From NCBI GenBank assembly GCA_023664685.1, contig JAMPFC010000006.1, positions 1-55,641 of the forward strand: a stretch of DNA of 55,641 bases, written 5' to 3'. This document shows positions 1,962 through 34,405 of the stretch, piece after piece. Positions within the stretch are counted from its first letter, which is position 1, and every line of letters starts with the position of its first letter. This DNA comes from Roseburia sp. Lineage in GTDB: Bacteria; Bacillota; Clostridia; Lachnospirales; Lachnospiraceae. The position numbers and the translations under genes were made by a program. Below the pieces are notes generated by a model. It saw only the letters and a program-made list of their open reading frames with translations. It had not been told where the DNA came from and ran no database searches.

Positions 1962-4900
1962 TTACTTTACCTTATATTTTTTTGTCTTTGTCCGGTATCC
2001 GGCTTTTGATACTGTAATCTTTATTTTCATTCCGCGTTTCAGTTTCTTTTTTAGACGCAACGTAAATCTTCCTTTGGAATCCGCCTTTACTGTATTATTT
2101 GTTTTACCAACTTGGATTTTTACTTTCGCACCCTTAAGGGTCTTTCCCGTTATTTTCCTCGTTCCCTTTTTATATTTTACCTTAGATAGCGAAATCGTCT
2201 TTTTCTTTTTATTTGTCTTTTTGTCATCCTTTGACACTTCCTCCTCTGAATCCTCCTGATCAGGCGCCACGTCCTGTCTTCCGTCAGTTGACGCCGGTTG
2301 GTCAGCGGTGCTGCCCGCTCCCTCCGGTTTTGCTGACTGCCCTGCCGCCGGAGAAGTTTCTGCCGGTTTTGCAGAATTTTCTGGTGCAGCCGAAGGTTCC
2401 GGTGTGCTGAGGTTTTCTCCGGGCGTTTCAGAAGGCGTCGGGGGATTCGGAACTTCCTCTGATCTATTCGCCTGTGTATAATCTGTCACATATTTGATGA
2501 CGATCTCTTCGCCGCCATAAAGTTCCTGCGCATTCATATATGAATTTACATACACCCCGCCGACCGTGTACATCCAGCCGGAATTATCACCATCTGAAAA
2601 TTCCGAAAGGTCATTGATCGACACGATATAACTGCCTTTTGCTGTATAAGGGATCTGACGCTCATTCATTACCTTTTGAAATACGTCAAAAACCGTAGCC
2701 CCTTTTGAAAAAGACTCCTCTGTCATTTGCGGGATGATCTCTTCACCTTCCCTGCCAAGTACGCAAAACGTCACAGATATCGGCTGCTCGATCTCTTTTT
2801 TGTAAGCAGAAAGTCTTTGGCTGTACGCAGCTTCTTTGGCAGATACATCCATCGCAGAAAATTCCGAAGTATAATTTCCCTCTCCTAGCACAGCCACATA
2901 TGCGCTTACCGGCTGTTTGTAAAGCTGTTTAAACTTCGCCAGCGCTTCCGCATCATACCCTTCACTCTTCTGAAATTTTATGTAATATTTCCCAAACACC
3001 TCATCCGTCAGCACGCTGTTTATTTTGACGAAAGTATCCTCTGCCGGCGTTTTGTTCAAAATCAGGGTTTCATTTGCGATCAGTTCCTTGTCATTGGAAT
3101 GGAACAGCCTCCAGTCCTCCTGTGACTCCCATCCCGGAAGCTCATCGACAATAATACCATTATTTTTCATATCCGCATGGCGGTATATGTATTCAATGCC
3201 CGACTGGTCTTTATTCCAGATAATTTCCTTATATGGTTTCAAATTGTCAATGACACTATAAAGATCTGTATTTTCACCGAGCAGTCCGTCTGCATAACCA
3301 CTCTTTGCCTGATCCATAAGGGCAAGCGCCTGATTGATCTCTGCCCTTCCCAAATGAGCCACTGAAACTTTGATTTTTTTCGTCACAAACAAATTCGGGT
3401 TCTTCTTGCTTGCCATTTTGACTTCCAGCGTCACCTCTTTGTCCGCAGATGCATCCTCACCCAACGGACGGTAAACATATGCACGGAAGCCATTGATTTC
3501 GATCACATCCGGGTCTGAACTTGTCACACTGAATTTATAATTCCAGTAATCCCAATATTCTCCGTAATTCAGTCCCGCAAGCTCTTTTTTAGTCACTACG
3601 TTCCCCGGAATAACTAAACCAATATCATGCCTAACCGCCGCGCAGTCAAGCGTTGCCTTTGTTGTATAATCCGTCAGTTTATCCGGTGTATAACAGGCAA
3701 GAATCCGATTCATCTTATCCATCGTCTGTTCCATCTGCTCCTCAGACATCGGCAGGATCGTAACCTCAAAAGTTCTTGATACCACAGTATCTGTCGACGG
3801 ATTTTTTACGGTCGCTGTCAGAGAAACGGTATGCTTTTCACTGTCCTGATAGATTTTCCCAACATACGGATTATAAAAAGCGTCCGCACTTCCCGTTCTA
3901 TTTTCATCGCTGATCGCAAGATGGGACTCATCCGAAGAACTCCATGTGATCTGGGCAAAGGAAAATTTGTCCCCATCAATGTAGGATGGCAGGGTTAAAT
4001 CCGAGCTGACAGCAGAAAGCTCCGGATTCTCACCACAAAGCGCCGACTCTGTCAAAACAGCGTCCGCCGACTGTTCCAACGACGACGTAATATCCTCCGT
4101 ATCCCACGGAATCAACAACGCATAATTATCCGTCGTAGGATAGGTAACGGTCTGGTCACCCATTGTCAGATTAAAAAACACCTTTACCTGTCTGCCATCT
4201 GCAAAACTGCCGGCTTCCGGTGCCGGATAAGATATCCTTCCGTTTTTGGAAACCAGTCTTTCATCTGCGGTCGACTGAACCGTAACTGCCACACCATAAT
4301 ACCCTTTATTTTTCAATATTCTGCTGAATTTTGACAGGATATTCGTGTCCTCACCACAAACCGGCTGCAACAGCTTAAAATCCCATTTCATGGCGTCGAG
4401 TACCTTTTGCAAATACATTCGTTCGTCAATGTCCTTTGCCCATACGTCCACAGAAAATGTTTTATGATCGGTCTCTTCTCCACATATGATCTCTGCTGTC
4501 AGGGTAACTTCCACAACTCCCTCATCCGGCAGGACAACATCCCCTGTATCATGAATGATCTCCGGACGGCTGCTCGTCCAGCGAATCTGGCAATCTCCCG
4601 ATACGTTCGGCAGTTCCAATTTCTCTTCCTTCGTGATCACCGTCTGATCAAGGGAAAGGGATTTTTTTGCTTCCTGTACTTTCTCACTGTTTTCTTTTCT
4701 TAAAAGAGTATCGGATTTAGCGATCGGCCCCTTTACATTAGAAGCAGTCGAACCTTCCTCGCCTGTCACAGTGACCCGTATATATGTTCCGACATACTCC
4801 GCCTCATCCGGAACCGCAAAGTTCCTCGTTGTAGCGCCACTGATATCTGTAAATGTAATGCCATCCGCAGATAACGCCCACTGGTATTTCACATTTGTAG

Positions 4901-6065
4901 CCATCTCATCTTCCTGACCGGTCGCTTCTGCGATCCACTCAGAACCCGTTTTCGCCTCGCCGGATATCATCACCTTCTCTACCGGAACAGATAACACCCC
5001 GGTGACAGACTGCCAATTTAAAACCGGATAACCTTGATTTACATTTTTTGTACCCTCGCAAAACGCCTTTTCACTTCCATCTGCATTCAGAGCCGCTAAC
5101 AGAGCAGACGAATCTGTAATTGTTTGATAACCGGTCGCTGTACCAGATGGCTTTGAAACTTCATCCTGTGTTTTCTCCGCAAGATAATAACAATTTACAA
5201 TGCTCGCATTACTAGATCCGCAAATTCCATTTTTACTTTCACCAATGCTATAGCAATAACTAATCGTTCCAGAAGAATTCGTATGTCGACCGGCAATTCC
5301 GCCGCAATAAAGCGTACCGCTATGTCCTTCCGGATTCGTGATTTTCCCGGTATTATAACAGTTCGTGATCGTCACATCTTTCTTCGTATTATCACCAATA
5401 ATTCCGCCGGCACAGTCACCACTTACCTGTGCATTGTTGCAACAGCCATTTACTACAACATCCGGATTATAAGCCGTCCCGATGATTCCCCCAGCGCATC
5501 CGCTTCCGGTGCCGGTTCCGGTTGTTGTAACAGAGCCGCTCATTGAGCAGTTCAGTATTTGACCGCTCTGTATCGTGCCTACGATTCCCCCAATCTTTTT
5601 CTCAGACGTTACATTTCCTTCTACGTTTACGTTTTTTATCGTCGCACCATTGACTAGGGCAAATAGTCCTTGATTCTGTTTATCCGTATTGATCTTCAGG
5701 TCGCTTATTGTATGGTTTTGTCCGTCAAATGTCCCACTATATGCCTGCTTAATAGAGCCCGCATCACTGATTGGAGTCCACGTCCGGTTTGCAAGATCTA
5801 TATCTTCTGTCAGGACAGCATCCACCTCTACCAGACCTGTCAGACTTTGGTCATTACACAGCGAGTTCACATGCTCTGCAAACCATGCAAGCTCTTCCGG
5901 ACTACCGATCTGGTAAACGCCCTCTTTTTCCTCTGGTTCTGTTTTCGTTGTACCATCCCATATAACAAGCGTCTTTGCCTCTGAGCGGATCGCTCCTTTC
6001 ATCTCAGGAACGATTGAGCCTGTCATCACAAGTATAAGCACAAGTGCCACAATTCTTTTCCTCAT
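1962..6065 (-). CDS. Large surface protein with GLUG repeats, Ig-like domains and transcobalamin-like DUF4430 domain
   Basis: A 1367-residue secreted protein. Residues 1-30 form a signal peptide. About 130-285 hold GLUG-type repeats (GGIVG, GGIIG, GGIAG modules, each followed by a strand-forming N-C-x motif). About 360-445 is Ig-like, and 455-1050 holds several atrophied-Ig (BIg_5) segments with W-S-S-x-P/D signatures. Residues about 1095-1200 match DUF4430, which is related to the C-terminal domain of transcobalamin and intrinsic factor: GATVFDVFQKVM, then SGWMYTVGGVYVN, then YGGEEIVIKYV. A Pro/Ser/Thr/Glu linker follows (1200-1277), then a very lysine-rich beta domain (1278-1367). No LPXTG motif is visible, so anchoring is probably non-covalent through the basic end. 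The ATG overlaps the stop of the upstream gene (ATGA). Both lie behind a cobalamin riboswitch, which supports capture of B12 or another corrinoid at the cell surface. Binding itself is inferred. Confidence 0.85.
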   Translation of the reverse strand: MRKRIVALVLILVMTGSIVPEMKGAIRSEAKTLVIWDGTTKTEPEEKEGVYQIGSPEELAWFAEHVNSLCNDQSLTGLVEVDAVLTEDIDLANRTWTPISDAGSIKQAYSGTFDGQNHTISDLKINTDKQNQGLFALVNGATIKNVNVEGNVTSEKKIGGIVGTIQSGQILNCSMSGSVTTTGTGTGSGCAGGIIGTAYNPDVVVNGCCNNAQVSGDCAGGIIGDNTKKDVTITNCYNTGKITNPEGHSGTLYCGGIAGRHTNSSGTISYCYSIGESKNGICGSSNASIVNCYYLAEKTQDEVSKPSGTATGYQTITDSSALLAALNADGSEKAFCEGTKNVNQGYPVLNWQSVTGVLSVPVEKVMISGEAKTGSEWIAEATGQEDEMATNVKYQWALSADGITFTDISGATTRNFAVPDEAEYVGTYIRVTVTGEEGSTASNVKGPIAKSDTLLRKENSEKVQEAKKSLSLDQTVITKEEKLELPNVSGDCQIRWTSSRPEIIHDTGDVVLPDEGVVEVTLTAEIICGEETDHKTFSVDVWAKDIDERMYLQKVLDAMKWDFKLLQPVCGEDTNILSKFSRILKNKGYYGVAVTVQSTADERLVSKNGRISYPAPEAGSFADGRQVKVFFNLTMGDQTVTYPTTDNYALLIPWDTEDITSSLEQSADAVLTESALCGENPELSAVSSDLTLPSYIDGDKFSFAQITWSSSDESHLAISDENRTGSADAFYNPYVGKIYQDSEKHTVSLTATVKNPSTDTVVSRTFEVTILPMSEEQMEQTMDKMNRILACYTPDKLTDYTTKATLDCAAVRHDIGLVIPGNVVTKKELAGLNYGEYWDYWNYKFSVTSSDPDVIEINGFRAYVYRPLGEDASADKEVTLEVKMASKKNPNLFVTKKIKVSVAHLGRAEINQALALMDQAKSGYADGLLGENTDLYSVIDNLKPYKEIIWNKDQSGIEYIYRHADMKNNGIIVDELPGWESQEDWRLFHSNDKELIANETLILNKTPAEDTFVKINSVLTDEVFGKYYIKFQKSEGYDAEALAKFKQLYKQPVSAYVAVLGEGNYTSEFSAMDVSAKEAAYSQRLSAYKKEIEQPISVTFCVLGREGEEIIPQMTEESFSKGATVFDVFQKVMNERQIPYTAKGSYIVSINDLSEFSDGDNSGWMYTVGGVYVNSYMNAQELYGGEEIVIKYVTDYTQANRSEEVPNPPTPSETPGENLSTPEPSAAPENSAKPAETSPAAGQSAKPEGAGSTADQPASTDGRQDVAPDQEDSEEEVSKDDKKTNKKKKTISLSKVKYKKGTRKITGKTLKGAKVKIQVGKTNNTVKADSKGRFTLRLKKKLKRGMKIKITVSKAGYRTKTKKYKVK

Positions 6066-6346
6066 TCTAATCCTCCATTTTCTTTCAAAAGATTTTTGGG
6101 ATGTTCCCTCCGGTATCTTTTCTGGTTTTCTCTGGCTCTCTGGCGTTTTTCCTTTTTCTTTAAAATCCGTTCCGGATTTGGTTCTTTAATTCCGGCAGTC
6201 TCCAATGCTCTTGGCCACGGCCCTAAATGAGCCTTGATCATAGCGGTCACTTCTTCTTCAAAATCTGATTTTTTCGGCAGACGCCCAAGTTCCTCCGCCT
6301 TCTGCCTCAAACAACAAATACAATCTTTTTTTGTGAGTTTGTTCAT
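6062..6346 (-). CDS. Small HNH-repeat (homing endonuclease-associated repeat) protein
   Basis: A 94-residue protein with the pattern CLRQKAEELGRLPKKSDF followed by GPWPRALETAG. This matches the homing-endonuclease-associated repeat family (PF18780, HNH_repeat), a small helical DNA-binding repeat with the signature G-R-x-P-x-x-x-D-F ... W-x-x-A-L-x-x-A-G. The C-terminal third is strongly basic (KKKEKRQRARENQKRYR). There is no HNH nuclease domain, so it is more likely a DNA-binding protein than an enzyme. It is the first gene after the cobalamin riboswitch. Its TGA overlaps the ATG of the surface-protein gene, so the two are translationally coupled. Why a DNA-binding repeat should be B12-controlled is not evident. 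A regulatory role is possible. Confidence 0.7.
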   Translation of the reverse strand: MNKLTKKDCICCLRQKAEELGRLPKKSDFEEEVTAMIKAHLGPWPRALETAGIKEPNPERILKKKEKRQRARENQKRYRREHPKNLLKENGGLE

Positions 6347-6398
6347 ACATTACCTCGCTTCTCTGGGACGCATTTCACAAAAGCCGGAAAATAAAAAG

Positions 6399-6432
6399 CA
6401 CATCTCTACTATGAATAAAAGTAAAAATGTGC
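6399..6432 (-). terminator. Possible riboswitch expression-platform terminator
   Basis: On the minus strand GCACAT (6432-6427) pairs with ATGTGC (6404-6399), with an inner TACT/AGTA pairing, and a TTTTTATTTT tract follows. It sits between the aptamer and the first gene, as expected for transcriptional control. The stem has an internal loop and is modest. Confidence 0.45.
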
Positions 6433-6459
6433 AACGATGTTTTCGCAAGCCAAAAAGCC

Positions 6460-6645
6460 AAAAGAATGCAGCCATTCCTCTGGTACTTACGTCAAACGGT
6501 TGCACTCTTCCTTACCCAAAAGTGTTTGTATGGGATTTTCCCTGTTAACCCTGTTTTTCAGCAGGAATCCCGACTTTTACGGTAATGGTGGTTGCGACGG
6601 ATTCTCACCGAACTTCCCCTTTAATGTTTCTTTGAAACAACACTG
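6460..6645 (-). promoter_or_regulatory. Cobalamin riboswitch
   Basis: On the minus strand the leader has AAAGGGGAA, then GGTGAGAATCC, then an ACC-rich stretch ending in ACCGTAA (about 6625-6565). This is the conserved core of the cobalamin aptamer (GGGAA ... GGTGxAAxTCC ... CxACTGTAA). About 85 bases later comes GACGTAAGTACCAGAGG-AATGGC (complement of 6470-6492), in the position and form of the B12 box (AAGxCAGGAxACCTGCC), though divergent. A sigma-A promoter lies just upstream and a gene encoding a transcobalamin-like protein lies downstream, so context agrees. High B12 is expected to shut the operon off. Confidence 0.85.
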
Positions 6646-6672
6646 AAAAACAGACATATCAATTTTCAAATA

Positions 6673-6701
6673 ATATTATCATCATCTGAATCTCTTGTCA
6701 A
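6673..6701 (-). promoter_or_regulatory. Sigma-A promoter of the riboswitch operon
   Basis: TTGACA (6701-6696) and TAATAT (6678-6673) are separated by exactly 17 bases, about 30 bases upstream of the riboswitch. Confidence 0.75.
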
Positions 6702-6728
6702 GTTTGCTGCGGATCACGGAAATCAATT

Positions 6729-6758
6729 TTGCCAAAACCGATCGTTTTATGATAGAAT
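6729..6758 (+). promoter_or_regulatory. Sigma-A-like promoter upstream of the LuxR-type gene
   Basis: TTGCCA at 6729-6734, 18 bases, then TAGAAT at 6753-6758. The transcript would have a leader of about 100 bases before the gene at 6862. Confidence 0.5.
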
Positions 6759-6861
6759 AGTCTCAGCAGAGCTGAGCCATTGCAAGTTGCTATCGCAACT
6801 TAAGATGCACAGAAAGCGTGTGCAAAAAATATGATAAATAGTCTCAAACATCAGGAAGAAG

Positions 6862-7620
6862 GTGTATTCATTGAAAGAACTCAGGACAAAAGACTGGATG
6901 CTCTTAAATGATATCATATATAAAATATATACGACAGAGGATCTGACTGCGATGCGTCAGGAATTTCTGGAACAGGTGAAGCTTCTCATCCATTTTGACA
7001 GCGCGGATTTCTTTCTTGCCGGACAGGGAGAGCCGGGCGGTCTGGAAATACCAGTGGCGGTCAACTGTGACGCTTCGCAAAACGTAGGATATGAAAAGAC
7101 GGAACAGGGCAGGAAAATTTTGTATGGCGAAAGGAGCATCGTATGCCGGGAGAGCGACCTGATTTCGGCTCAGGAACAAACCGAGAGCGAATACTATAAG
7201 AAAGTTTTTGTTCCAAACAACTGGGAGCATGCGCTTCATATGGCTGTCTGCGAAGAAAAGCGGTGTCTGGGGATCGCAACTTTTTACCGGACGGTGGGAA
7301 AAGCTGATTTTAGCGGCGACGATATCTTTCTTCTTGATCTTTTGAAGGAACATATGGCGTATCGGCTAGGGATTTTTGCACAGGAGAAGATGGCGGGAAT
7401 GGATAAGATTACGATCAGCGAGGCGGTCAAAACATATGACCTGACCGGGAGAGAGGCAACGATTCTCCGTCTTTTACTGGCGGGATGCGATAATGAAGCG
7501 ATATGTGAAAAGCTCGTGATCAGCATTAACACATTAAAAAAGCATGTACTAAATATCTACCGAAAGCTTGGCATCAAAAACCGTGTGCAGATGTTTAAGA
7601 TGATACGTGAAAGAGAGTGA
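6862..7620 (+). CDS. LuxR-family transcriptional regulator with GAF-like sensor region
   Basis: A 252-residue protein. The C-terminal 65 residues are a LuxR/GerE helix-turn-helix: TGREATILRLLLAGCDNEAI, then NTLKKHVLNIYRKLGIKNRV. Residues 10-170 look like a degenerate GAF-type sensor (DSADFFLAG ... GIATFYRTVG ... LDLLKEHM). No receiver domain or phosphorylatable aspartate is visible. The start is uncertain: GTG at 6862, or TTG at 6871, which has a better spaced AAGG. The next gene starts at or just after its stop, so the two are probably co-transcribed. The ligand and target genes cannot be told from sequence. Confidence 0.85.
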   Translation: MYSLKELRTKDWMLLNDIIYKIYTTEDLTAMRQEFLEQVKLLIHFDSADFFLAGQGEPGGLEIPVAVNCDASQNVGYEKTEQGRKILYGERSIVCRESDLISAQEQTESEYYKKVFVPNNWEHALHMAVCEEKRCLGIATFYRTVGKADFSGDDIFLLDLLKEHMAYRLGIFAQEKMAGMDKITISEAVKTYDLTGREATILRLLLAGCDNEAICEKLVISINTLKKHVLNIYRKLGIKNRVQMFKMIRERE

Positions 7621-8120
7621 TCCGTATGGATGGAAAATTATTATACCGGGGAAAATGGTATCTGGTCTGTCTGGACATGGACACGCACCGAAGACGCATA
7701 AGAGTGGAACTTGAAGAAGACAGGATACTCCTCCATACGCCGAAGACAGACCGGGCATTTTTGCAGGAGGGGCTTGAGCAGTGGTACAGCAGGCAGGCGC
7801 ATATGATATTTCCTGTGCGGGTCATGCATTATCAGCAGCTCACCGGTGGACGGGTAAACCAGATCCACATCCGCGACCAGAAGACCCGGTGGGGAAGCTG
7901 CAGCAGTCTCAAAAATCTGAACTTTAACTGGCGGCTTGTCATGGCTCCGCCGGAGGTACTGGATTATGTGGTGGTACATGAACTCTGTCATCTGACTCAC
8001 ATGAACCACAGCCGGGAGTTTTGGGAGATGGTGGGGCGCGTGATGCCGGAGTACCGGAAGTGGAAGCAGTGGCTTAAGGAAAATGAGAAGCTTTTGGCGA
8101 ACATGACTATATTTGCCTGA
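7617..8120 (+). CDS. YgjP-like (DUF45/WLM-type) zinc metallopeptidase
   Basis: A 167-residue protein with the YgjP/SprT-like signature: TRWGSCSS, then LNFNWRLVMAPPEVLDYVVV, then the zinc motif HELCH (HExxH) with the third ligand in HMNHSREFW. This is the standard PF01863 arrangement. The length is short because most family members have a longer N-terminal beta region. The first possible start is GTG 7617, overlapping the previous stop. ATG 7626 is also possible and fits the spacing from GAGAG. The substrate is unknown. It is probably translationally coupled to the LuxR-type regulator. Confidence 0.85.
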   Translation: MIRMDGKLLYRGKWYLVCLDMDTHRRRIRVELEEDRILLHTPKTDRAFLQEGLEQWYSRQAHMIFPVRVMHYQQLTGGRVNQIHIRDQKTRWGSCSSLKNLNFNWRLVMAPPEVLDYVVVHELCHLTHMNHSREFWEMVGRVMPEYRKWKQWLKENEKLLANMTIFA

Positions 8121-8133
8121 AGCAGACCAAAGG

Positions 8134-8168
8134 AAAGAGAGCTGAACCTATTCGGAACAGCCCTCTTT
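8134..8168 (+). terminator. Probable terminator
   Basis: AAAGAGAGCTG (8134-8144) pairs with CAGCCCTCTTT (8158-8168) with one mismatch across a 13-base loop. There is no strong T tract after it beyond the arm itself. Confidence 0.45.
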
Positions 8169-8271
8169 ACCCGATATTCAATTATTTCCCTGTCCCATCC
8201 CTCGTTACCCATACAGTTTTATTCCACCGTATATTTGCACCTTAGTTCTGCACGGACAACCATAATACGCG

Positions 8272-8487
8272 TCAGGAAAAATCCTTTTCATTCACTTTGT
8301 CAAAGCAAATGCCTGTGATCCTTCCCTCATCATCACTTACATAGTCAAGCATGTAAACCGGTTCTTCAAGTACATAAAAAAATTTTTCAGGATCATGGTA
8401 GTTACATTCCCTGCCTTCAATCTGTACCTTAAGTCCCTGTTTTACAGCTCTTTTAAGCTCATCTTGGAGCCACGAAGCCTCTGTCAT
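8272..8487 (-). CDS. Small conserved-type hypothetical protein
   Basis: The start is placed at ATG 8487 because AAGGAGG lies 6 bases upstream. The longer frame starting at 8550 lacks a ribosome site. The 71-residue product begins MTEASWLQDELKRAV, is acidic and has no signal or membrane segment. It contains a beta-rich middle (LKVQIEGREC, FFYVLEEPVYMLDYV) with a single cysteine. I do not recognise the family. It stands alone, with convergent genes on its downstream side and a long AT-rich gap upstream. Confidence 0.65.
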   Translation of the reverse strand: MTEASWLQDELKRAVKQGLKVQIEGRECNYHDPEKFFYVLEEPVYMLDYVSDDEGRITGICFDKVNEKDFS

Positions 8488-8891
8488 TGTATCCCTCCTT
8501 GTGTCATACTGCATCAAAAAGGAAGTGTATACCGTGATGTAAAATTCCAATCCTCTGCATCGTTCAGATAAAAAATATTCATTTTATAAAAATCCATTAC
8601 TGATTTTGTTTGTTGCTGAAAATTGAGCGACTTTGCTGCTTAGAAAAATTAAGATCGTTATTTTGGAAAGATGTCAGATAAATTCTTCTCTGCCCCAAGT
8701 TTATTACATTCCCCCTTTCATGAATATTTTCTATCTTGATATATATTATAATATCGGCACCCTTAAAAAATCAAGTGTCGTTTATACGCAAAAAGTGTCG
8801 TTTGAACGTGAAAAATGTCGCCAAATTTCCAAAATTCGTCTTTCATTACAAAACTCTTCATAATTTTCCAATATTTTTTCGCTTTAAGATG
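8488..8891. other. AT-rich intergenic region
   Basis: About 400 bases with no credible coding frame: frames here lack ribosome sites and are very rich in Ile, Lys, Ser and Phe. The only structured element I see is the short repeat cluster at 8772-8822, described separately. The mecA promoter begins at 8892. Confidence 0.5.
8772..8822. repeat. Cluster of GTGTCGTTT direct repeats, possible IS21-type end remnant
   Basis: Two copies of AAGTGTCGTTTxxACGxx (8773-8790 and 8793-8810) are followed by a partial third, AAAAATGTCGCC (8811-8822). Multiple short TGTC-containing terminal repeats are typical of IS21-family ends. No IstA or IstB gene is present, so this would be a solo end or relic. Low certainty. 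Confidence 0.35.
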
Positions 8892-8920
8892 TTGACTTTA
8901 TTTGTGTAATATTTTATACT
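8892..8920 (+). promoter_or_regulatory. Sigma-A promoter of mecA
   Basis: TTGACT (8892-8897), 17 bases, TATACT (8915-8920), 40 bases upstream of the mecA start. Confidence 0.75.
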
Positions 8921-8960
8921 TTTCATACACCAGTAAATAATTCGGAAAGGAAGTGGGCTT

Positions 8961-9782
8961 GTGAAAATCGAACGTATTAACGAAAATCAAATTCGTTGCA
9001 CACTTAACAAACATGATTTACTTGAGCGCCATTTAAAGATCAGTGAATTAGCATATGGTTCTGACAAAGCAAAAGAGCTTTTTCGTGATATGATGGAACG
9101 AGCAAATATGGATTTCGGATTTCAGACCGAGGATATCCCTCTTATGATAGAGGCGATCCCAACCTCCAAAGAATCCATTGTCCTCGTCATTACAAAAGTG
9201 GATAGTCCGGAGGAATTGGAGGAAAAATTTGCCGATCTTGGAATCGTTACCAATAAATTTATTGAGGATCCCATAGAGTACGAGGAGTTTTTTGACGATG
9301 AGTTCGAGGATGAGTTTGAAGACGATTACGAAGGTGATCTGATCAACTGTTTTGAACAATTAAATGAGATCATTGAACATGCTTCTGAAGTAGACCAGAC
9401 CAGTTCAGAGTTTATTCCTTTACATGAACTTCTGAAAAAAGGAAAAAAGGCAACGGAAAAACTCAGCACAAAGAGAAATTTGCCTTTAAGCGACTTTGCA
9501 AGGCTTTACTCGTTCTCTTCCCTGAATTTTGTCGTGGACGCCTCCAAAGCGGTGTACCAGATTTATTCCGGGAAGAACAGTGTATGGAAAGACGAGGTAA
9601 GCAGCCGCTATTATCTTCTCCTCAACAGAAATGAAAACAAATCCTCTTTTAATAAGATTTGTTCCATTATCAATGAGTTTGGAAGAAAAGAGACCTTGAC
9701 TTATGCTACGCAGGATTTCTTTAATGAACACTATAAATTGATCCTCAAGGATGACGCGATCACCAAGTTATCCCTGCTCTAG
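8961..9782 (+). CDS. mecA: Adaptor protein MecA
   Basis: A 273-residue protein starting at GTG 8961 with AAAGGAAG upstream. The N-terminal domain begins MKIERINENQIRCTLNKHDL, the usual MecA start. The middle is a very acidic linker (EEFFDDEFEDEFEDDYEGD, about residues 113-131). The C-terminal domain (about 170-273) has YSFSSLNFVVDASKAVY and RYYLLLNR, the conserved ClpC-binding MecA domain. In this family MecA delivers substrates to the ClpCP protease and helps assemble ClpC hexamers. In Bacillus it controls competence. Here it has its own promoter and terminator. Length and domain order are normal, although the C-terminal region is somewhat longer than in Bacillus. Confidence 0.95.
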   Translation: MKIERINENQIRCTLNKHDLLERHLKISELAYGSDKAKELFRDMMERANMDFGFQTEDIPLMIEAIPTSKESIVLVITKVDSPEELEEKFADLGIVTNKFIEDPIEYEEFFDDEFEDEFEDDYEGDLINCFEQLNEIIEHASEVDQTSSEFIPLHELLKKGKKATEKLSTKRNLPLSDFARLYSFSSLNFVVDASKAVYQIYSGKNSVWKDEVSSRYYLLLNRNENKSSFNKICSIINEFGRKETLTYATQDFFNEHYKLILKDDAITKLSLL

Positions 9783-9849
9783 TGCGACGCTGATCCGGTT
9801 TTATGATACCTGTCGTACGGAAGAAGGAGAAATTATCTGAAAAACACAC

Positions 9850-9892
9850 AAACCAGTTCATTCCGCTTTCGGGAAGAACTGGTTTTTCTTTT
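9850..9892 (+). terminator. mecA terminator
   Basis: Perfect 10-bp stem AAACCAGTTC (9850-9859) / GAACTGGTTT (9876-9885) followed by TTCTTTTCTT. Confidence 0.85.
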
Positions 9893-9914
9893 CTTCTGCT
9901 TTGGCATCGGCAAA

Positions 9915-10124
9915 TCATGCATTTGCCTTTGTCGTTAAATACTCATTTATTTTAGATACTAATTCATCGCAGTCTAAACCGTGAACCATAGCTGCTTCTT
10001 CCAAACTCTCATTCTGGGACGCCGGGCAGCCTACACAATGCATTCCGGATGCCATAAGAATCGCCGCAATCGTCTGATCCTTTGTGAGAATTTCTCCAAT
10101 CAGCATGTCCTTTGTAACTTCCAT
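9915..10124 (-). CDS. DUF1858 domain protein
   Basis: The start is set at ATG 10124, which has AAAGGAGG 9 bases upstream. The longer frame to 10223 crosses the promoter. The 69-residue product begins [13 protein letters not shown] and carries the DUF1858 signature with a cysteine pair, [17 protein letters not shown]. These small proteins have a helical fold with a CxxC-like redox or metal site. Their biochemical role is not settled, but in anaerobes they often sit near hybrid-cluster or ferredoxin-type genes. Here the gene is divergent from a ferredoxin and has a perfect consensus sigma-A promoter, which suggests strong constitutive expression. Confidence 0.85.
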
Positions 10125-10161
10125 AGTTCCAAATCCTCCTTTCAAAAACAGTACCACTTCG

Positions 10162-10190
10162 ATTATATTCACTGAATGCGCAAATGTCAA
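10162..10190 (-). promoter_or_regulatory. Consensus sigma-A promoter of the DUF1858 gene
   Basis: TTGACA (10190-10185), 17 bases, TATAAT (10167-10162): a perfect match to the consensus hexamers and spacing. Confidence 0.85.
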
Positions 10191-10240
10191 GCAAATAAAC
10201 GGATTCCCTGTTAGGATATACAAAATTTTTATTGTTATAC

Positions 10241-10269
10241 TTGTATTTTTCGCCGATTTGTATTAGAAT
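10241..10269 (+). promoter_or_regulatory. Sigma-A promoter of the ferredoxin gene
   Basis: TTGTAT (10241-10246), 17 bases, TAGAAT (10264-10269), 33 bases upstream of the ferredoxin start. Confidence 0.7.
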
Positions 10270-10302
10270 GATGATATCTACTAGAAAAAGGAGGATATTA
10301 TC

Positions 10303-10470
10303 ATGGCATACACTATTACAGATGCTTGCATCAGTTGTGGTTCATGTGCAGCTGATTGTCCGGCTGGCGCCATTTCAGAAGGCTCCGCACATTTCGAGAT
10401 TGATGCGGATGCATGTTTGGATTGTGGAGCTTGTGCTTCTACATGTCCTACAGGCGCTATCGAAAACTAG
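10303..10470 (+). CDS. Clostridial-type 2[4Fe-4S] ferredoxin
   Basis: A 55-residue protein starting at ATG 10303 behind AAAGGAGG. It has two CxxCxxCxxxC(P) motifs, CISCGSCAADCPAGAI and CLDCGACASTCPTGAI, so all eight cluster ligands are present. This is the classic small bacterial ferredoxin of anaerobes, a soluble low-potential electron carrier for pyruvate:ferredoxin oxidoreductase, hydrogenase and similar enzymes. Length is normal. It is monocistronic, with its own promoter and a strong terminator, as expected for an abundant electron carrier. Confidence 0.96.
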   Translation: MAYTITDACISCGSCAADCPAGAISEGSAHFEIDADACLDCGACASTCPTGAIEN

Positions 10471-10522
10471 TATAGAGTCCTACATAACTTAGTAACTTCT
10501 ATACTGACATGTAAGGTTTGAA

Positions 10523-10544
10523 TCACCAGATGCAGGGCTGGTGA
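10523..10544 (+). other. Small hairpin after the ferredoxin gene
   Basis: TCACCAG (10523-10529) and CTGGTGA (10538-10544) form a 7-bp stem. There is no T tract. It lies between the stop codon and the main terminator and could stabilise the mRNA end. Confidence 0.4.
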
Positions 10545-10549
10545 AACAA

Positions 10550-10598
10550 AACAGACAGGATGCCGTCTCTACGGTGACATTCCTGTCTGTTTTTACTT
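10550..10598. terminator. Bidirectional terminator (ferredoxin / pgi)
   Basis: AACAGACAGGA (10550-10560) pairs with TCCTGTCTGTT (10581-10591), with an inner CCGT/ACGG stem, followed by TTTT. The opposite strand also carries a T-rich exit for the convergent pgi gene ending at 10605. Confidence 0.85.
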
Positions 10599-10604
10599 TA
10601 TTTT

Positions 10605-11954
10605 TTACAATCTGCCAAGAAGCTCCTCGCGCTGTGCCTCAAAGCCCGGTTTCCCAAGCAGGGCAAACATATTTTTCTTATAACTCTCAACACCCGGCTG
10701 GTTAAACGGATTTACTCCGAGGATATATCCGCTTATGCCGCACGCAAACTCGAAAAAGTAAAATAACTCGCCGAGATAAAACTCGTTCTGTTCCGGCACC
10801 TTTACGACAAGATTCGGGACATTTCCGTCGGTATGCGCAAGCTGTGTACCCTTCATCGCATTTTTATTTACAAAATCAAGCGTTTTTCCCGCCAGATAAT
10901 TCAAGCCATCCAAATCCACAGGCTCTTCCTTTAAGGTAATGTCTGCCGCCGGACTCTCAAGCTCCATAACGGTCTCAAACATGATCCGGGAACCATCCTG
11001 TATGAACTGTCCCATCGAGTGAAGATCCGTCGTAAGATCCACGCTCGCCGGGAAAATACCCTTCTGGTCTTTTCCTTCACTCTCTCCATAGAGCTGCTTC
11101 CACCACTCGCTCACATAATGGAAAAATGGCTCATAATTGGCAAGCACCTCTACCGCTTTTCCTTTTCTATGCAAAATATTGCGCACTGCCGCATACATCG
11201 CAGCCGCACTGTCACAAACATCACTCTCGATGCAGAGCTTTCTCATGCTCTGTGCGCCCTCCATCAGCTTGTCCAGTTCTGCCCCGCTGACTGCGATCGG
11301 AAGAAGGCCAACCGCTGTGAGAACGGAAAATCTTCCGCCCACGTCATCCGGCACGACAAAACTCTCATACCCCTCTTCGGTTGCAAGGCTCTTTAATGCA
11401 CCTTTTGCCTTATCTGTCGTCGCATAAATCCTCTTAGCGGCCCCGTCTTTTCCATACTTTTTCTCAAGCATTTCCTTAAAGATCCGGAAAGCGATCGCCG
11501 GTTCCGTCGTCGTTCCCGACTTACTGATCACATTTACGGAAAAATCCCTGTCTCCGATCGTCTCGATCAACTGGGAAAGGTATGTCCCGCTTATGCTGTT
11601 TCCGGCATAATAAATCTCCGGTGTCTTCCGGACTGATTTGTCAACACAGTTGTAAAAACCATGTCTCAAAAACTCGATCGCAGCCCTTGCTCCCAGATAA
11701 GAACCACCGATCCCGATCACGATCAGAACTTCGGAATCGGATTGTATTTTTTCTGCTGCCTTTTTGATCCTTGCAAATTCGTCCTTGTCATAATTTTCCG
11801 GAAGATCGATCCATCCAAGAAAATCATTTCCCGCACCATTTCTGCCCAGAAGCGTATCCTTTGCTGTCTGCACAATGCTTGTCATAGACTTTACTTCGTC
11901 ATCACTGATAAATTTCTTTGCCAGTGAATAATCAAATGTAACATGCTTACTCAT
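10605..11954 (-). CDS. pgi: Glucose-6-phosphate isomerase
   Basis: A 449-residue protein of the short bacterial Pgi type. It interconverts glucose 6-phosphate and fructose 6-phosphate in the cytoplasm. Visible motifs are [18 protein letters not shown] (about residue 80), [14 protein letters not shown] in the phosphate-binding SIS fold, and the Pgi signature [20 protein letters not shown] (about 205-225). A catalytic-loop segment, [12 protein letters not shown], follows. ATG 11954 has GGAAAGGATAGG upstream. The gene has its own TTGTCT-N17-TATAAT promoter and a shared terminator, so it is probably monocistronic. No abnormalities are seen. Confidence 0.97.
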
Positions 11955-12000
11955 TTTCCTATCCTTTCCTTTCGCTTCAATTTTGTATATTGCTATCCTT

Positions 12001-12029
12001 ATTATACCAAATCAGTATTTAAAAGACAA
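12001..12029 (-). promoter_or_regulatory. Sigma-A promoter of pgi
   Basis: TTGTCT (12029-12024), 17 bases, TATAAT (12006-12001). Confidence 0.75.
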
Positions 12030-12031
12030 GA

Positions 12032-12697
12032 CTACGCCATGTATTCTTTCAGCACCTCTTCAATGACCGCTTCCTCCTCCTTTGTAAACTGGAGGTTCAC
12101 CTGCGGCTCCTCCTGACGTTCTGATAAGAGTTCATCTAGCTGCGCCCTCTCCTCCTCAAAATACTCATGGTGGTATTCTTCCATTTCTTCTTTCCGGAAT
12201 GTCTGGTTTTCCAGTCTCGGCTTGCAGATATTTTCCAGATAATCCCGAATCTCTACCATGAGCCGCCTTCTGCAAAACCTCAGATTCAAAATAATGTCCT
12301 CGAGGATGATAATCCCGCAGACAGCAATCCCTGTAAATAAAAATTCTGTCATCATAAGCCGGCTGCCGCCCATCACTGCGATATACAGATTGCAGAGAAG
12401 ACTCGTGATCAGCGTGATGCCAAATGCCACATCACTTATCGCCTCCCATGTGTTCAGGTGAAGCCCCGCCGCCCGATAGGCATTCAGATACTTGTCCACA
12501 AAAACCTCTACATTTTCAACTCCCATTTTTAACTGATAACAGGTCTCGAATTTTTTCAAAAGCATCTTCATCAGCGGATGGTCTGATTTGCCCATCTGCC
12601 CCGCTGAGCGGATGAGCTGCCTGTAAATCCCCTTCACGACCAGTTTCCCCAGAAAGCAGAACACCCCAAGCCCTATTATGACATATAACATACCCAT
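12032..12697 (-). CDS. Membrane protein of unknown function
   Basis: The start is placed at ATG 12697, nine bases after GAGGG. The 221-residue product has a TM helix at residues 3-20, a cytoplasmic-looking helical part to about 85, and two further TM helices at about 88-108 and 115-135 (ITLITSLLCNLYIAVMGG, TGIAVCGIIILEDIIL). A long, highly charged C-terminal tail follows (EEMEEYHHEYFEEERAQLDEL ...). No catalytic motif is seen. I do not recognise a named family, though this layout is common in Lachnospiraceae genomes upstream of housekeeping genes. It is separated from murG by about 195 bases with no gene. Confidence 0.7.
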   Translation of the reverse strand: MGMLYVIIGLGVFCFLGKLVVKGIYRQLIRSAGQMGKSDHPLMKMLLKKFETCYQLKMGVENVEVFVDKYLNAYRAAGLHLNTWEAISDVAFGITLITSLLCNLYIAVMGGSRLMMTEFLFTGIAVCGIIILEDIILNLRFCRRRLMVEIRDYLENICKPRLENQTFRKEEMEEYHHEYFEEERAQLDELLSERQEEPQVNLQFTKEEEAVIEEVLKEYMA

Positions 12698-12893
12698 CAA
12701 AGATATCCCTCACTTTCTGTAAATAATTCTTCTGTTACCCATATAGTATAGCAGAGTTCCAAAGCCTCTGTACAGATGTGAGTGATAAAATCTGACATTT
12801 TCGTGCGACGGACTTCGACACGCTTTTATGTTTCCCGAACAAAATCGCCAAGAAAAAACAAAAATCGTGAAAACTGCCGCCGCTCTGGTTTTA

Positions 12894-13958
12894 TTATTTT
12901 GCGATTTCGTCTATGATGTCTGCAACCTTCAACACTGCATTGTGCTGATTGCTAGCCTCCATCGCATTGATGTACGTATTTTTGTTGTTATAAACCTCTT
13001 TCACCGCCTCGAGGAGTTTTTCACTGGAAAGTTCCTCCTCACGGATCACATAGCTGAATCCCTGCTTTTCAAACGATTCCGCATTCAAAATCTGATCCCC
13101 CCTACTTGCCTCTAAGGAAAGCGGGATTAAGATATTCGGCTTATGGAGTGCCAGAAGTTCACAGATCGCATTGGCGCCTGCCCTTGATATCACAAGGTCT
13201 GCCGCACTCAAAAGGTCGCACAGTTCCTTCTGGATGTATTCAAACTGAGCGTATCCCTCTACGTCCGAAAGACTCTCATCCACCTTATCCTTGCCGCACA
13301 GATGGATCACTTGGTATTTTTCAAGCAGCTCTGGCAAAATATCCCGTACCGCCTCGTTCACACGGACGGAGCCAAGGCTTCCGCCTATGACAAGGATAAC
13401 CGGCTTATCCGCCGAAAATCCGCAAAAATCCAAGCCATTCAAACGATTTCCGGAAAACAGTTCCTTTCGGATCGGAGAACCCGTAAGATGCGCCTTTTCC
13501 TCCGGAAGATGGGACAGCGTCTCTGGAAAATTTGCACAGACTGCCCGTGCCGACGGGATGCACAAACGATTGGCAAGTCCCGGGGAAATATCGGATTCGT
13601 GAAGCACACACGGCACCTTTTTCCTCTTTGCCGCAAGCACTACCGGCACCGTCACAAACCCGCCTTTGGAAAATATAACGTCCGGCTTCACCCTTTTGAT
13701 GATCTTAGCCGCCTCGGTGTATCCCTTTATGATCCTTGCCGGGTCTGTAAAATTTTTAACGTCAAAATATCTGCGGAGTTTTCCCGATGAAATTCCATAA
13801 TATGGTATCTCAAACTCCGACATGAGTTTCGTCTCGATCCCATCCTTTGAACCGATATAATGAATTTCATAACCTCTCTTTTGAAGCTCCGGTATCAGCG
13901 CAATATTCGGTGTGACATGCCCTGCTGTTCCCCCACCGGTAAGAATGATTTTTTTCAA
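12894..13958 (-). CDS. murG: UDP-GlcNAc:undecaprenyl-pyrophosphoryl-MurNAc-pentapeptide GlcNAc transferase
   Basis: A 354-residue GT28 enzyme that adds GlcNAc to lipid I to give lipid II at the inner face of the membrane. The N-terminus has GGGTAGHVTPNIAL, the first glycine-rich motif. FSKGGFVTVPVVLAA and VIGGSLGSVRVNEAV follow, and the donor-binding segment SRAGANAICELLAL lies near residue 265. All match MurG. The start codon is TTG at 13958; a GGGGG lies somewhat far upstream. The gene stands apart from a dcw cluster and is followed in the same orientation, after a gap, by the membrane protein at 12032. Confidence 0.95.
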   Translation of the reverse strand: MKKIILTGGGTAGHVTPNIALIPELQKRGYEIHYIGSKDGIETKLMSEFEIPYYGISSGKLRRYFDVKNFTDPARIIKGYTEAAKIIKRVKPDVIFSKGGFVTVPVVLAAKRKKVPCVLHESDISPGLANRLCIPSARAVCANFPETLSHLPEEKAHLTGSPIRKELFSGNRLNGLDFCGFSADKPVILVIGGSLGSVRVNEAVRDILPELLEKYQVIHLCGKDKVDESLSDVEGYAQFEYIQKELCDLLSAADLVISRAGANAICELLALHKPNILIPLSLEASRGDQILNAESFEKQGFSYVIREEELSSEKLLEAVKEVYNNKNTYINAMEASNQHNAVLKVADIIDEIAK

Positions 13959-13975
13959 TTTCGTAAAACCCCCAG

Positions 13976-14386
13976 TTATAAATTCTTTTTAATTTCCTCT
14001 GCTACCTTTTCCAAATCCGGCGTCTCGCCCGGTTTCCACATGATATTTACACCATCGTCATAATATCTTGGTATCACATGCACATGAAGATGAAATACGG
14101 TCTGGCCTGCCGCCTCTCCATTGTTCTGCAAAACATTGACGCCATCGCAGTTATACGTCTTCATAAGCGCAGAGGCGATTTTTTTTGCCACTGGAAAAAT
14201 CTTCGCCGCATCCTCTTCTTCCAACTCAAAAATGTTTGCTGCATGTTTTTTCGGAAGTATGATCACATGTCCCCTCGCTGCCGGATTCACATCCAAGATC
14301 GCGCGGAAATCATCATCCTCATATACCGCGGTCGACGGAATTTCTCCTGCTATGATCTTACAAAATATACAATTTTCATCTGCCAT
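13976..14386 (-). CDS. HIT family protein
   Basis: A 136-residue histidine-triad protein from ATG 14386 (AGAGAGG, 8 bases upstream). It starts MADENCIFCKIIAGEIPS, with the CxxC often seen in this group, and has the HIT motif in GQTVFHLHVHVIPR (H-x-H-x-H). Such enzymes hydrolyse nucleoside phosphoramidates or related adenylated compounds. The physiological substrate cannot be told from sequence. It lies 17 bases upstream of murG on the same strand, so the two are probably co-transcribed. Confidence 0.93.
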   Translation of the reverse strand: MADENCIFCKIIAGEIPSTAVYEDDDFRAILDVNPAARGHVIILPKKHAANIFELEEEDAAKIFPVAKKIASALMKTYNCDGVNVLQNNGEAAGQTVFHLHVHVIPRYYDDGVNIMWKPGETPDLEKVAEEIKKNL

Positions 14387-14421
14387 CACAAATACCTCTC
14401 TTTTCTTAATATAAATGAATT

Positions 14422-15408
14422 TTAAAACCGGAATACGGTATCAAAGTTCCTAAGTACCTTAAAATTGCCCTGTGCCGATAAATCCCCTGACATAAACGCA
14501 TTCTGGAATGGTTTATCTCCGGATAAGATTTCATTAAAAATCGCACTTTTCGTCTTTGCAGTCACATCCGGATTCTGCACACTGCCAAAATAGCAGTTTA
14601 ATTTATCATTTTTGATATCGATGACCAGACTTCTGTTTTCGTCCGTAATGTCGATCTGGAACACCATCCTCATATCATCGCTTGGCACAAAATGCTCTTT
14701 CAGCGCAAGGATGTATTTGTCTGAATCCTCTTCGCCGCCGAGCATCCCTTTGAACAGGCTTGCCAGTTCTTCAATATCCTCTTTCTGCTTTTTCACATAA
14801 TTATCATCGGACACATACGCCGACAACTGCTCACTCTCCTGCGGAGTGAGTGAAAGCGTACTGCTTCGGAGTACCGTCTTTTTCACCTGTGAGCTGCTAT
14901 TTGGAAAGGCTGCCATTTTCTTGGAGATCGTGCGGTAAAAATTCTCGGCGCACTTCTCGATCATAAGATTATAGTCCGGATTTGTCTCAAATTCCACATG
15001 GTTATCCACATATGCACAGACTCCCTCACAGGGAACTCCTCCCAACATCTCCCATGCCCGGATCAGCGAATGCTGCGCCTCTCTTTCTCCATACGTCGTA
15101 GCCATAACGACCGGAAGCATATAAATATGCTGTATATGTTCTTTGTCCCCATAGAGCCAGCAGGCATCCAAAAATTGCTGAAGATATCCGCCGATACCAA
15201 GCCATTCGACCGAAGCGGCAAGAATGACCCCATCTGCCTCTTTCAGCGTCTTGGGCAATACCGAAATACTGCTCTTATCCTCATACAGATTATATCGTTC
15301 CACATTTACACGGAGTTCATCCAAAACCTGTGCTATTTTATCGATTGTAAATAATGTCGGATCATCGATCAGTCCCCTGCCTCCATAATAAATATTTACT
15401 CTCATCAT
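14422..15408 (-). CDS. Flavodoxin-fold NAD(P)H oxidoreductase fused to SCP2-like domain
   Basis: A 328-residue fusion. Residues 1-180 have a flavodoxin-like fold: MRVNIYYGGRG, then ADGVILAASVEWLGIGG, then MLPVVMATTYGEREAQ. This resembles NADPH-dependent FMN reductases. Residues about 225-328 match an SCP2-type sterol-carrier fold (VFQIDITDENRSLVIDI ... FMSGDLSAQGNFKVLRNF). The combination is common in Lachnospiraceae. The SCP2 half probably binds a hydrophobic ligand, and the flavin half may act on it, but the substrate is unknown. The ATG overlaps the rhomboid gene stop by 4 bases, so it is translationally coupled to it. Confidence 0.85.
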   Translation of the reverse strand: MMRVNIYYGGRGLIDDPTLFTIDKIAQVLDELRVNVERYNLYEDKSSISVLPKTLKEADGVILAASVEWLGIGGYLQQFLDACWLYGDKEHIQHIYMLPVVMATTYGEREAQHSLIRAWEMLGGVPCEGVCAYVDNHVEFETNPDYNLMIEKCAENFYRTISKKMAAFPNSSSQVKKTVLRSSTLSLTPQESEQLSAYVSDDNYVKKQKEDIEELASLFKGMLGGEEDSDKYILALKEHFVPSDDMRMVFQIDITDENRSLVIDIKNDKLNCYFGSVQNPDVTAKTKSAIFNEILSGDKPFQNAFMSGDLSAQGNFKVLRNFDTVFRF

Positions 15409-16088
15409 AATCCCTGTTCCTTTCCATCCGTAAACATCTTTTTCTTAATGCACATGACCACACACACCAGAAAGCCTCCCAAAAACCCTCCCACATGAGC
15501 TGTATTGTCGATTCCGGAATCCTGCATCCCGCTGTACAGAATAAGTACAATATACAACAGGAAACGGAATGCTTCTTTTTGCAGATTATTTCTTCTATTT
15601 ATGATAAGTACGACAAAAAGCGCACCCATCAAGCCATAGATCGCACCCGACGCACCGCATGATACCCGTTCTTGATAAGCGCTCAGGTTGTAAAAAACCG
15701 ATACTAGTCCTGCAAAAATACCCGAAAACAAATAAATAAAACAATACCAACCCCGTCCGATCCGGTTCTCAAGAGCATAACCAAGTACAAGAAGGGAGAC
15801 CATATTACTCGCAAGATGCTCTAACCCAAAATGAAGAAAAAAATGGGTAAAGACCCGGTAATACTCGTGTCCATCCAGAAAAGCCGGGCCATACATCGCT
15901 CCGGCACTTATCATATAATTCGCGTCCAGACTCGACCCATTCATTTCCGTATAGAAAAATGCGATTACATTTGCTGCGACAAAAATCAGCGTAATAAACG
16001 GAATTTTCTCATTTCCGGCATTCTCATCCAACCCTGCGGCCACCTCCAGACTTGTCTCTCCTTGCAAAATATGATAGTATTGTACCAT
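15405..16088 (-). CDS. Rhomboid-family intramembrane serine protease
   Basis: Up to 227 residues with six predicted TM helices. The catalytic serine lies in GASGAIYG (about residue 150) and the histidine in NTAHVGGFLGG near the C-terminal end. HFFLHFGLEHLASNMVSL is the typical H-x-x-x-N segment of helix 2. It cleaves membrane-spanning substrates within the bilayer. The start is uncertain: ATG 16088 has no ribosome site, whereas TTG 16031 lies 10 bases after GGAGG and would begin at LDENAGNEK. The downstream SCP2 flavoprotein gene overlaps its stop codon. Confidence 0.9.
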   Translation of the reverse strand: MVQYYHILQGETSLEVAAGLDENAGNEKIPFITLIFVAANVIAFFYTEMNGSSLDANYMISAGAMYGPAFLDGHEYYRVFTHFFLHFGLEHLASNMVSLLVLGYALENRIGRGWYCFIYLFSGIFAGLVSVFYNLSAYQERVSCGASGAIYGLMGALFVVLIINRRNNLQKEAFRFLLYIVLILYSGMQDSGIDNTAHVGGFLGGFLVCVVMCIKKKMFTDGKEQGL

Positions 16089-34379: not shown

Positions 34380-34405
34380 AAATATTTATTAAAAAGGAGG
34401 ATACT

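Follow-up and report, generated by a model that had tools for sequence, protein, structure and literature searches.

Our analysis of a 55,641-nucleotide stretch of Roseburia sp. DNA (contig JAMPFC010000006.1, positions 1 to 55,641; hereafter, the window) points, with good confidence on our part, to a cobalamin-repressed operon on its minus strand that would serve to capture corrinoids at the cell surface. The main product, a large secreted protein, carries a single DUF4430 domain with the modelled fold of the beta domain of transcobalamin, one of the animal vitamin B12 carriers, and would feed an importer of the energy-coupling factor (ECF) type. The first-pass annotation of the sequence had read the locus as encoding a surface corrinoid-capture protein, and this reading is supported by the results below. 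In the 5' to 3' direction the order is promoter, riboswitch aptamer, terminator leader, an open reading frame (ORF) of 94 amino acids (aa) and one of 1,367 aa, and the overlap of the two ORFs through ATGA bears out the two-gene unit that had been proposed. The features, some of them immunoglobulin-like (Ig-like), are:

6673..6701, minus strand: sigma-70-type promoter, TTGACA-17-TAATAT, with TG before the -10 hexamer (10/12 matches)
6543..6662, minus strand: cobalamin riboswitch aptamer (RF00174), short form (52.5 bits vs. a gathering score of 31.5)
6503..6524, minus strand: putative anti-antiterminator hairpin, CACUUU with AGAGUG (6/6 pairs standard in 13/13 sequences)
6429..6505, minus strand: putative antiterminator, GUGCAAC (6505-6499) pairing with GUUGCAC (6435-6429) (96.7% of cells paired)
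6393..6432, minus strand: intrinsic terminator from the leader alignment, a 13-pair stem (6432-6420 with 6410-6398) followed by UUUUU (6397-6393)
6062..6346, minus strand: 94-aa HNH_repeat (PF18780) protein (43.3 bits), basic in its tail; opens the two-gene unit
1962..6065, minus strand: 1,367-aa secreted protein with export signal, GLUG-like region, Ig-like stalk, DUF4430, Pro-rich linker and cationic Big_6 C-terminus
5526..5594, minus strand: GLUG-like motif, aa 158-180 (14.4 bits, below the Pfam cut-off of 20.5)
4437..4670, minus strand: aBig_2 atrophied Ig domain, aa 466-543 (62 bits)
2466..2810, minus strand: transcobalamin-beta-fold domain, aa 1086-1200, DUF4430 core at 2487-2702 (PF14478 and model)
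1965..2219, minus strand: cationic Ig-like C-terminus (Big_6, aa 1296-1354), net charge +33 over the last 85 residues

The domain at the center of this reading matches PF14478 at aa 1122-1193 (43.6 bits, cut-off 23.8), in agreement with the earlier call of a large secreted DUF4430 protein. Its model (predicted local distance difference test score, pLDDT, 91.1) has haptocorrin, intrinsic factor and transcobalamin as nearest folds in a structure search, among them the beta domain of transcobalamin on its own, in a crystal structure with cyanocobalamin. The modelled window domain has the beta-domain fold of transcobalamin, and it would bind the corrin. The kinship with transcobalamin and intrinsic factor C-termini that had been claimed stands at the level of the modelled fold and is limited to the beta half, with no alpha/alpha toroid family among the Pfam matches of the 1,367-aa protein. 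The alpha half contributes to the affinity of transcobalamin, and a single beta domain without a toroid should bind more weakly than full transcobalamin; such weaker binding would suit hand-over. Since a toroid search gave matches in relatives of the same order and nothing in five members of the genus, the window genome among them, the genus appears, as far as sequence searches can tell, to use the beta half alone. Because there is neither a toroid in the chain nor sequence similarity to the animal carriers, we name the product a transcobalamin-beta-fold protein, not a transcobalamin.

The leader points to control by cobalamin. A cobalamin riboswitch had been placed within positions 6380-6700, and the RF00174 match found there has an E value of 2.9e-10 in a search of the whole window; alignment to RF00174 reveals that about 70 model positions are missing, from what we take to be the peripheral arm. 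The second riboswitch of the genome is of the long form, unlike this short aptamer. The promoter is as clean as had been described, its -35 hexamer being unchanged across five orthologous leaders, and the stretch that holds it contains 5 promoter-like sites vs. 1.4 in shuffles. Between the aptamer and the 94-aa ORF, 196 nucleotides apart, lies a covarying terminator. We aligned the leaders of 13 orthologous loci (the window, L036-L039, L078-L083, L085 and L086), which represent one inheritance and not independent cases, and RF00174 scores above gathering upstream in 13/13 of them, marginally so in L085 (32.0). One of these loci, L081, comes from a record titled 'Bacteroides sp.' and is a clear orthologue of the operon (49% identity), the record being probably mislabelled or misbinned. 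The terminator helix is 96.3% paired over the 13 leaders, with changes on both sides at four pairs. Five of the six anti-antiterminator pairs are invariant across the leaders and covariation thus cannot test that hairpin; likewise, no covariation was found in the antiterminator across the 13 aligned leaders because its sequence is too conserved for the test. Since the leader has a covarying terminator, B12 is most likely the off signal, i.e., the leader most likely works as an OFF switch via termination, with cobalamin turning the genes off.

Under the model that we favor, the empty aptamer at low cobalamin would allow the antiterminator to form and the operon to be transcribed, as the conserved alternative hairpins suggest, and bound cobalamin would let the terminator form and stop transcription. 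The main product would be exported and held on the Gram-positive surface via its cationic C-terminal Ig-like module, with the GLUG/Ig-like stalk presenting one domain of the transcobalamin/haptocorrin/intrinsic factor beta fold for corrin binding. A Gram-positive cell akin to the Lachnospiraceae is suggested by the named orthologues. The corrinoid would then be passed to a DUF4430 protein that heads an ECF-transporter operon, be imported, and probably supply at least MetH.

A need for the vitamin, and a route for its uptake, are suggested by the genome (3.0 Mb, 98.75% complete). It encodes a MetH-like protein, in which a homocysteine-transferase domain and a pterin domain are combined with two B12-binding domains. 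CbiD had no match in this genome (control matches in 6/14 genomes), and BtuF-type PF01497 had 0 matches in it (G000; control matches in 13/14 genomes). With MetH present and no CbiD or PF01497 match, the bacterium looks like a corrinoid user that imports without BtuF, and it seems, from its gene complement, unable to make vitamin B12. The suggestion that the system lies outside the BtuF/BtuCD path is thus upheld, a DUF4430-headed ECF operon being found instead. This operon (L006) starts with the second of the two PF14478 proteins of the genome and continues with an EcfT-like ORF, a double ECF-type ATPase and an S component. The EcfT-like ORF (288 aa, between DUF4430 and ATPase) has no Pfam match and is so called from position alone, the 502-aa ATPase matches PF00005 (132 bits) and has the ECF ATPase family TIGR04520 as its best NCBIfam match (269 bits, under the cut-off of 315), and the S component matches PF12822 (36.2 vs. 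30.7 bits). Within the window itself, a RACo-type reductive activator of corrinoid proteins at 16138-17550 on the plus strand (RACo_C_ter 199 bits, Raco_middle 112 bits) is a second corrinoid-linked gene.

The window operon forms part of a larger regulon. The second of the two RF00174 matches in the genome (contig C127) precedes a 434-aa secreted protein and a secreted propeller protein:

L005 2162-4009, plus strand: secreted PQQ-type propeller (PQQ_2 by Pfam), 615 aa, after the transcobalamin-like gene

The 434-aa protein has no Pfam DUF4430 call; its family (A2) aligns with DUF4430 in a profile comparison (96.9%, E 1.9e-10), and its model, of modest pLDDT (71.8), has transcobalamin-type chains and the solved DUF4430 protein RUMGNA_00854 (PDB 3u7z) in rows 1-19 (E 2.5e-4 to 6.7e-3). 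A similar propeller ORF was seen by eye in 10/12 A2 loci of the genus (L045 and L051 are cut at contig ends). We considered the 615-aa propeller as a BtuG-like protein and rejected this assignment, there being no specific match and only generic PQQ propellers exceeding the cut-off.

Across the genus (37 genomes, including the window's own), 18 riboswitches were found, five upstream of window-type proteins, 12 upstream of A2-type proteins and one (G022) upstream of a CbiK-like gene start. Fourteen of the 18 lie <6 kb from a DUF4430 match, against an expectation of about 0.7% per site, and in a wider sample of 61 genomes the same holds for 20/42 riboswitches, 13/42 having DUF4430 downstream on the same strand. 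Chance co-occurrence was rejected (P about 5e-32, assuming uniform placement at 0.7% per site, an estimate that ignores relatedness and hence overstates the case). At eight genus loci (L040, L042-L048), an A2 riboswitch operon and a DUF4430 gene point away from each other, and an ECF ATPase gene lies past the DUF4430 gene. In a sample of the order (295 genomes), DUF4430 was found in 120/295 genomes and RF00174 in 187/295, and riboswitch-DUF4430 adjacency was recognized by eye at eight further places among the matches listed, seven with DUF4430 downstream (G105:C49, G166:C1, G191:C82, G151:C2, G212:C1, G117:C31 and G261:C8) and one divergent (G194:C251). Among the same listed matches, some genomes, e.g., G063, G069 and G070, have DUF4430 without a riboswitch match. 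Further, many of 18 riboswitches of order relatives without nearby DUF4430 precede, by eye, cob/cbi-like or ABC-transporter-like genes.

Order relatives also show how the two halves of an animal-type carrier can be arranged. The riboswitch operon of L053 encodes a DUF4430 lipoprotein, ECF-like genes (by eye), a toroid protein and a 918-aa protein that combines toroid, DUF4430 and SLH, and in L052 and L056 a toroid protein is encoded near a DUF4430 protein (below Pfam cut-offs in L056). The toroid matches in G059, G041 and G044 fall at these same loci, and SLH anchors for DUF4430 proteins are present in L053-L056. A separate observation concerns L087 (Clostridium aminobutyricum DSM 2634), where tandem cobalamin riboswitches (106.8 and 102.8 bits, ~435 nucleotides apart, 4707-5575) are followed by a 3,264-aa ORF (5689-15483) with DUF4430, transglutaminase-like and SLH domains in its second half.

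How the large protein stays at the cell can be approached from its two ends and its stalk. Its N-terminus has a hydrophobic stretch suited to export. The first-pass annotation had assigned GLUG and Ig-like repeats to the stalk; the Ig-like part is confirmed (aBig_2 as above; Big_6 27.8 bits, cut-off 27.6), and GLUG is weak in the window copy. Among six orthologues scanned, GLUG exceeded the cut-off in two (L038, 41.9 bits; L078, 25.2 bits), was slightly under it in L036 and L082, and was absent from L079 and L085. A strongly cationic Ig-like end (net charge of +33 to +40 across 85 residues) is common to the window protein and the four orthologues closest to it. Of seven more distant orthologues, six (L078-L083) have a helix of transmembrane type and a basic tail at this end, and L085 shows neither kind of end. 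No LPxTG was found in the last 60 residues of any of 12 proteins (window and orthologues, with the contig-cut L086 left out). With such different devices in one position, attachment to the cell seems to matter, and we presume from the sequence that the cationic C-terminal Ig-like module retains the window protein at the surface. Elsewhere in the window, at 34325-36064 on the plus strand, is a secreted protein with BspA-type leucine-rich repeats and a Lys-rich fn3-like end, which by eye resembles the cationic C-termini of the riboswitch-controlled proteins; perhaps such Lys-rich or cationic ends are a general surface-retention device of this genome.

The first gene of the unit is less readily placed. 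A similar small ORF is found in 12/13 orthologous loci (motif search, with a Pfam check for the window and L036), and the 94-aa protein is the single PF18780 match in the whole window genome. A role as a defence gene was rejected, PADLOC giving no match, and our best guess is that this HNH-repeat protein is a small nucleic-acid-binding regulator. The identity of this ORF, the terminator/antiterminator leader and the rest of the regulon go beyond the first-pass annotation.

Several results weigh against surface capture by a transcobalamin-like domain. The domain-family profile (A1) gave six matches against PDB sequences up to E 10, none of them to transcobalamin, intrinsic factor or haptocorrin; a sequence link to these carriers was also not found using the A2 profile or the L053 lipoprotein, and the toroid+DUF4430 stretch of L053 matched squalene-hopene cyclases and prenyltransferases and none of the three carriers. 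In the lack of a sequence-level match, the link to the animal carriers rests on fold. Neither the window genome nor four sister genomes yielded a toroid partner, in a search whose controls (G059, G041 and G044) gave matches, that of G044 under the cut-off; an earlier search had no positive control. The entry for the solved DUF4430 protein (3u7z) bears the title 'putative metal binding protein', and the S component of L006 has broad-family and weak folate-family matches only, which assign no substrate to it. The ECF contig of the window genome carries no riboswitch; it begins 314 bases before the DUF4430 gene, and thus the neighbour on that side is out of view. Nor is the association of domain and riboswitch universal: in a riboswitch search with stricter filters, 41/64 DUF4430 matches in the 61 genomes had no riboswitch <6 kb away in either orientation, as had 11/21 of those in frames of at least 400 aa, and the G022 riboswitch stands, by eye, before the start of a chelatase gene that we take to be CbiK-like, an ordinary type of target. 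At L011, L023, L024 and L027 (G006, G033, G034 and G036, respectively), the A2 and DUF4430 genes are divergent with no riboswitch at gathering score, which refutes a riboswitch at every A2/DUF4430-ECF locus. In G006, G034 and G036 there is a riboswitch at the window-type locus instead (L039, L037 and L036), and it seems that the riboswitch was lost or shifted from one arm to the other. For G033, the genus riboswitch search gave no match.

Alternatively, the large protein might be a B12-responsive adhesin that attaches to host, food or neighbours, with DUF4430 being inert or protein-binding and cobalamin serving as a cue of location. Most of its length is a repeat stalk with GLUG and aBig_2 matches, the surface proteins that are its sole sequence matches in the PDB align across the GLUG-like region, and DUF4430 is also found away from riboswitches. 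However, riboswitch-controlled proteins of two distinct builds in the genus share the transcobalamin-beta fold, a third DUF4430 protein heads the ECF operon, and L085 keeps DUF4430 in spite of an altered N-terminal part, and we thus regard an adhesin as quite unlikely. A scavenger under cobalamin control whose ligand is not a complete cobamide but cobinamide or another precursor, or a chelate of cobalt or another metal, would be in line with the title of 3u7z, with the binding of cobinamide by the transcobalamin beta domain too (PMC5599065), and with cobalt and precursor transporters being usual targets of cobalamin riboswitches (PMC3766115). Yet the fold matches are carriers of complete cobalamin, and free cobalt would be of little use to a cell whose genome lacks a CbiD match, which makes another ligand unlikely. 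Finally, the protein could hoard cobamides at the surface, or keep them from competitors, and not feed its own importer; the window operon itself has no transporter gene and the genome encodes more than one secreted protein of the transcobalamin-beta fold, but genes of this fold adjoin an ECF operon in eight sister genomes and lie inside one in L053, and such a sink appears very unlikely to us. As a side note on the domain, most ECF-linked members in the A1 alignment carry the cysteine of a DCG motif and another cysteine near the first strand, both missing from the stalked window type; judging from the alignment, these cysteines are possibly a disulfide or a cobalt ligand.

On the whole, we favor surface capture of corrinoids for an ECF importer, and we lean, on balance, towards a broader proposal. 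That is, Clostridia may have a bacterial transcobalamin system of riboswitch-controlled surface traps, modular in build, with alpha and beta halves fused, encoded separately or, for this genus, with a stalked beta domain only, which feed a DUF4430-headed ECF importer, share ancestry with the animal carriers, and may have a dedicated regulator in the HNH-repeat protein. The findings suggest that gut bacteria may catch B12 at their surface with a look-alike of the animal carriers, and bear on the origin of these carriers as well as on the competition between microbes and host for B12. The locus is also a directly testable candidate, comprising a 115-residue domain, one leader RNA and a cultured strain with a similar arrangement.

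Several known systems invite comparison. The open-licence literature that we searched (subscription papers and preprints being outside its scope) holds no recognisable account of bacterial DUF4430 as a cobalamin binder or of the window operon. The solved DUF4430 protein RUMGNA_00854 has the same domain fold and differs in being a chain of 96-97 residues titled as putative metal-binding. With the animal carriers transcobalamin, intrinsic factor and haptocorrin, the window protein shares the C-terminal beta-domain fold (by model), the extracellular location and, presumably, cobalamin as ligand, and the order relative L053 even has toroid and DUF4430 in a single chain; the window protein, however, is a stalked, riboswitch-controlled chain of 1,367 aa, with no toroid match in the window or four sister genomes and no detected sequence similarity to the carriers. 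BtuFCD is the same in function, i.e., extracytoplasmic capture followed by ATP-driven import, but the window genome has no PF01497 match. ECF-CbrT (PMC5997447) provides ECF-type cobalamin import in genomes without BtuCDF, with a B12-dependent enzyme needed; L006 similarly encodes ECF-type ATPases and an S component together in a genome with need for such an enzyme, but its S component has broad and weak folate-family matches only and DUF4430 proteins stand alongside. The propeller after the second riboswitch of the genome recalls BtuG but has no specific match to it. BtuG and BtuH are surface B12-binding lipoproteins of Bacteroides, and by analogy the window system would likewise capture corrinoids at the surface, under cobalamin control and upstream of a membrane importer, but with another fold of the capture domain and in a Gram-positive envelope. 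Riboswitch-controlled surface capture of B12 is a known kind of system, and what would differ here is the protein family and the type of envelope.

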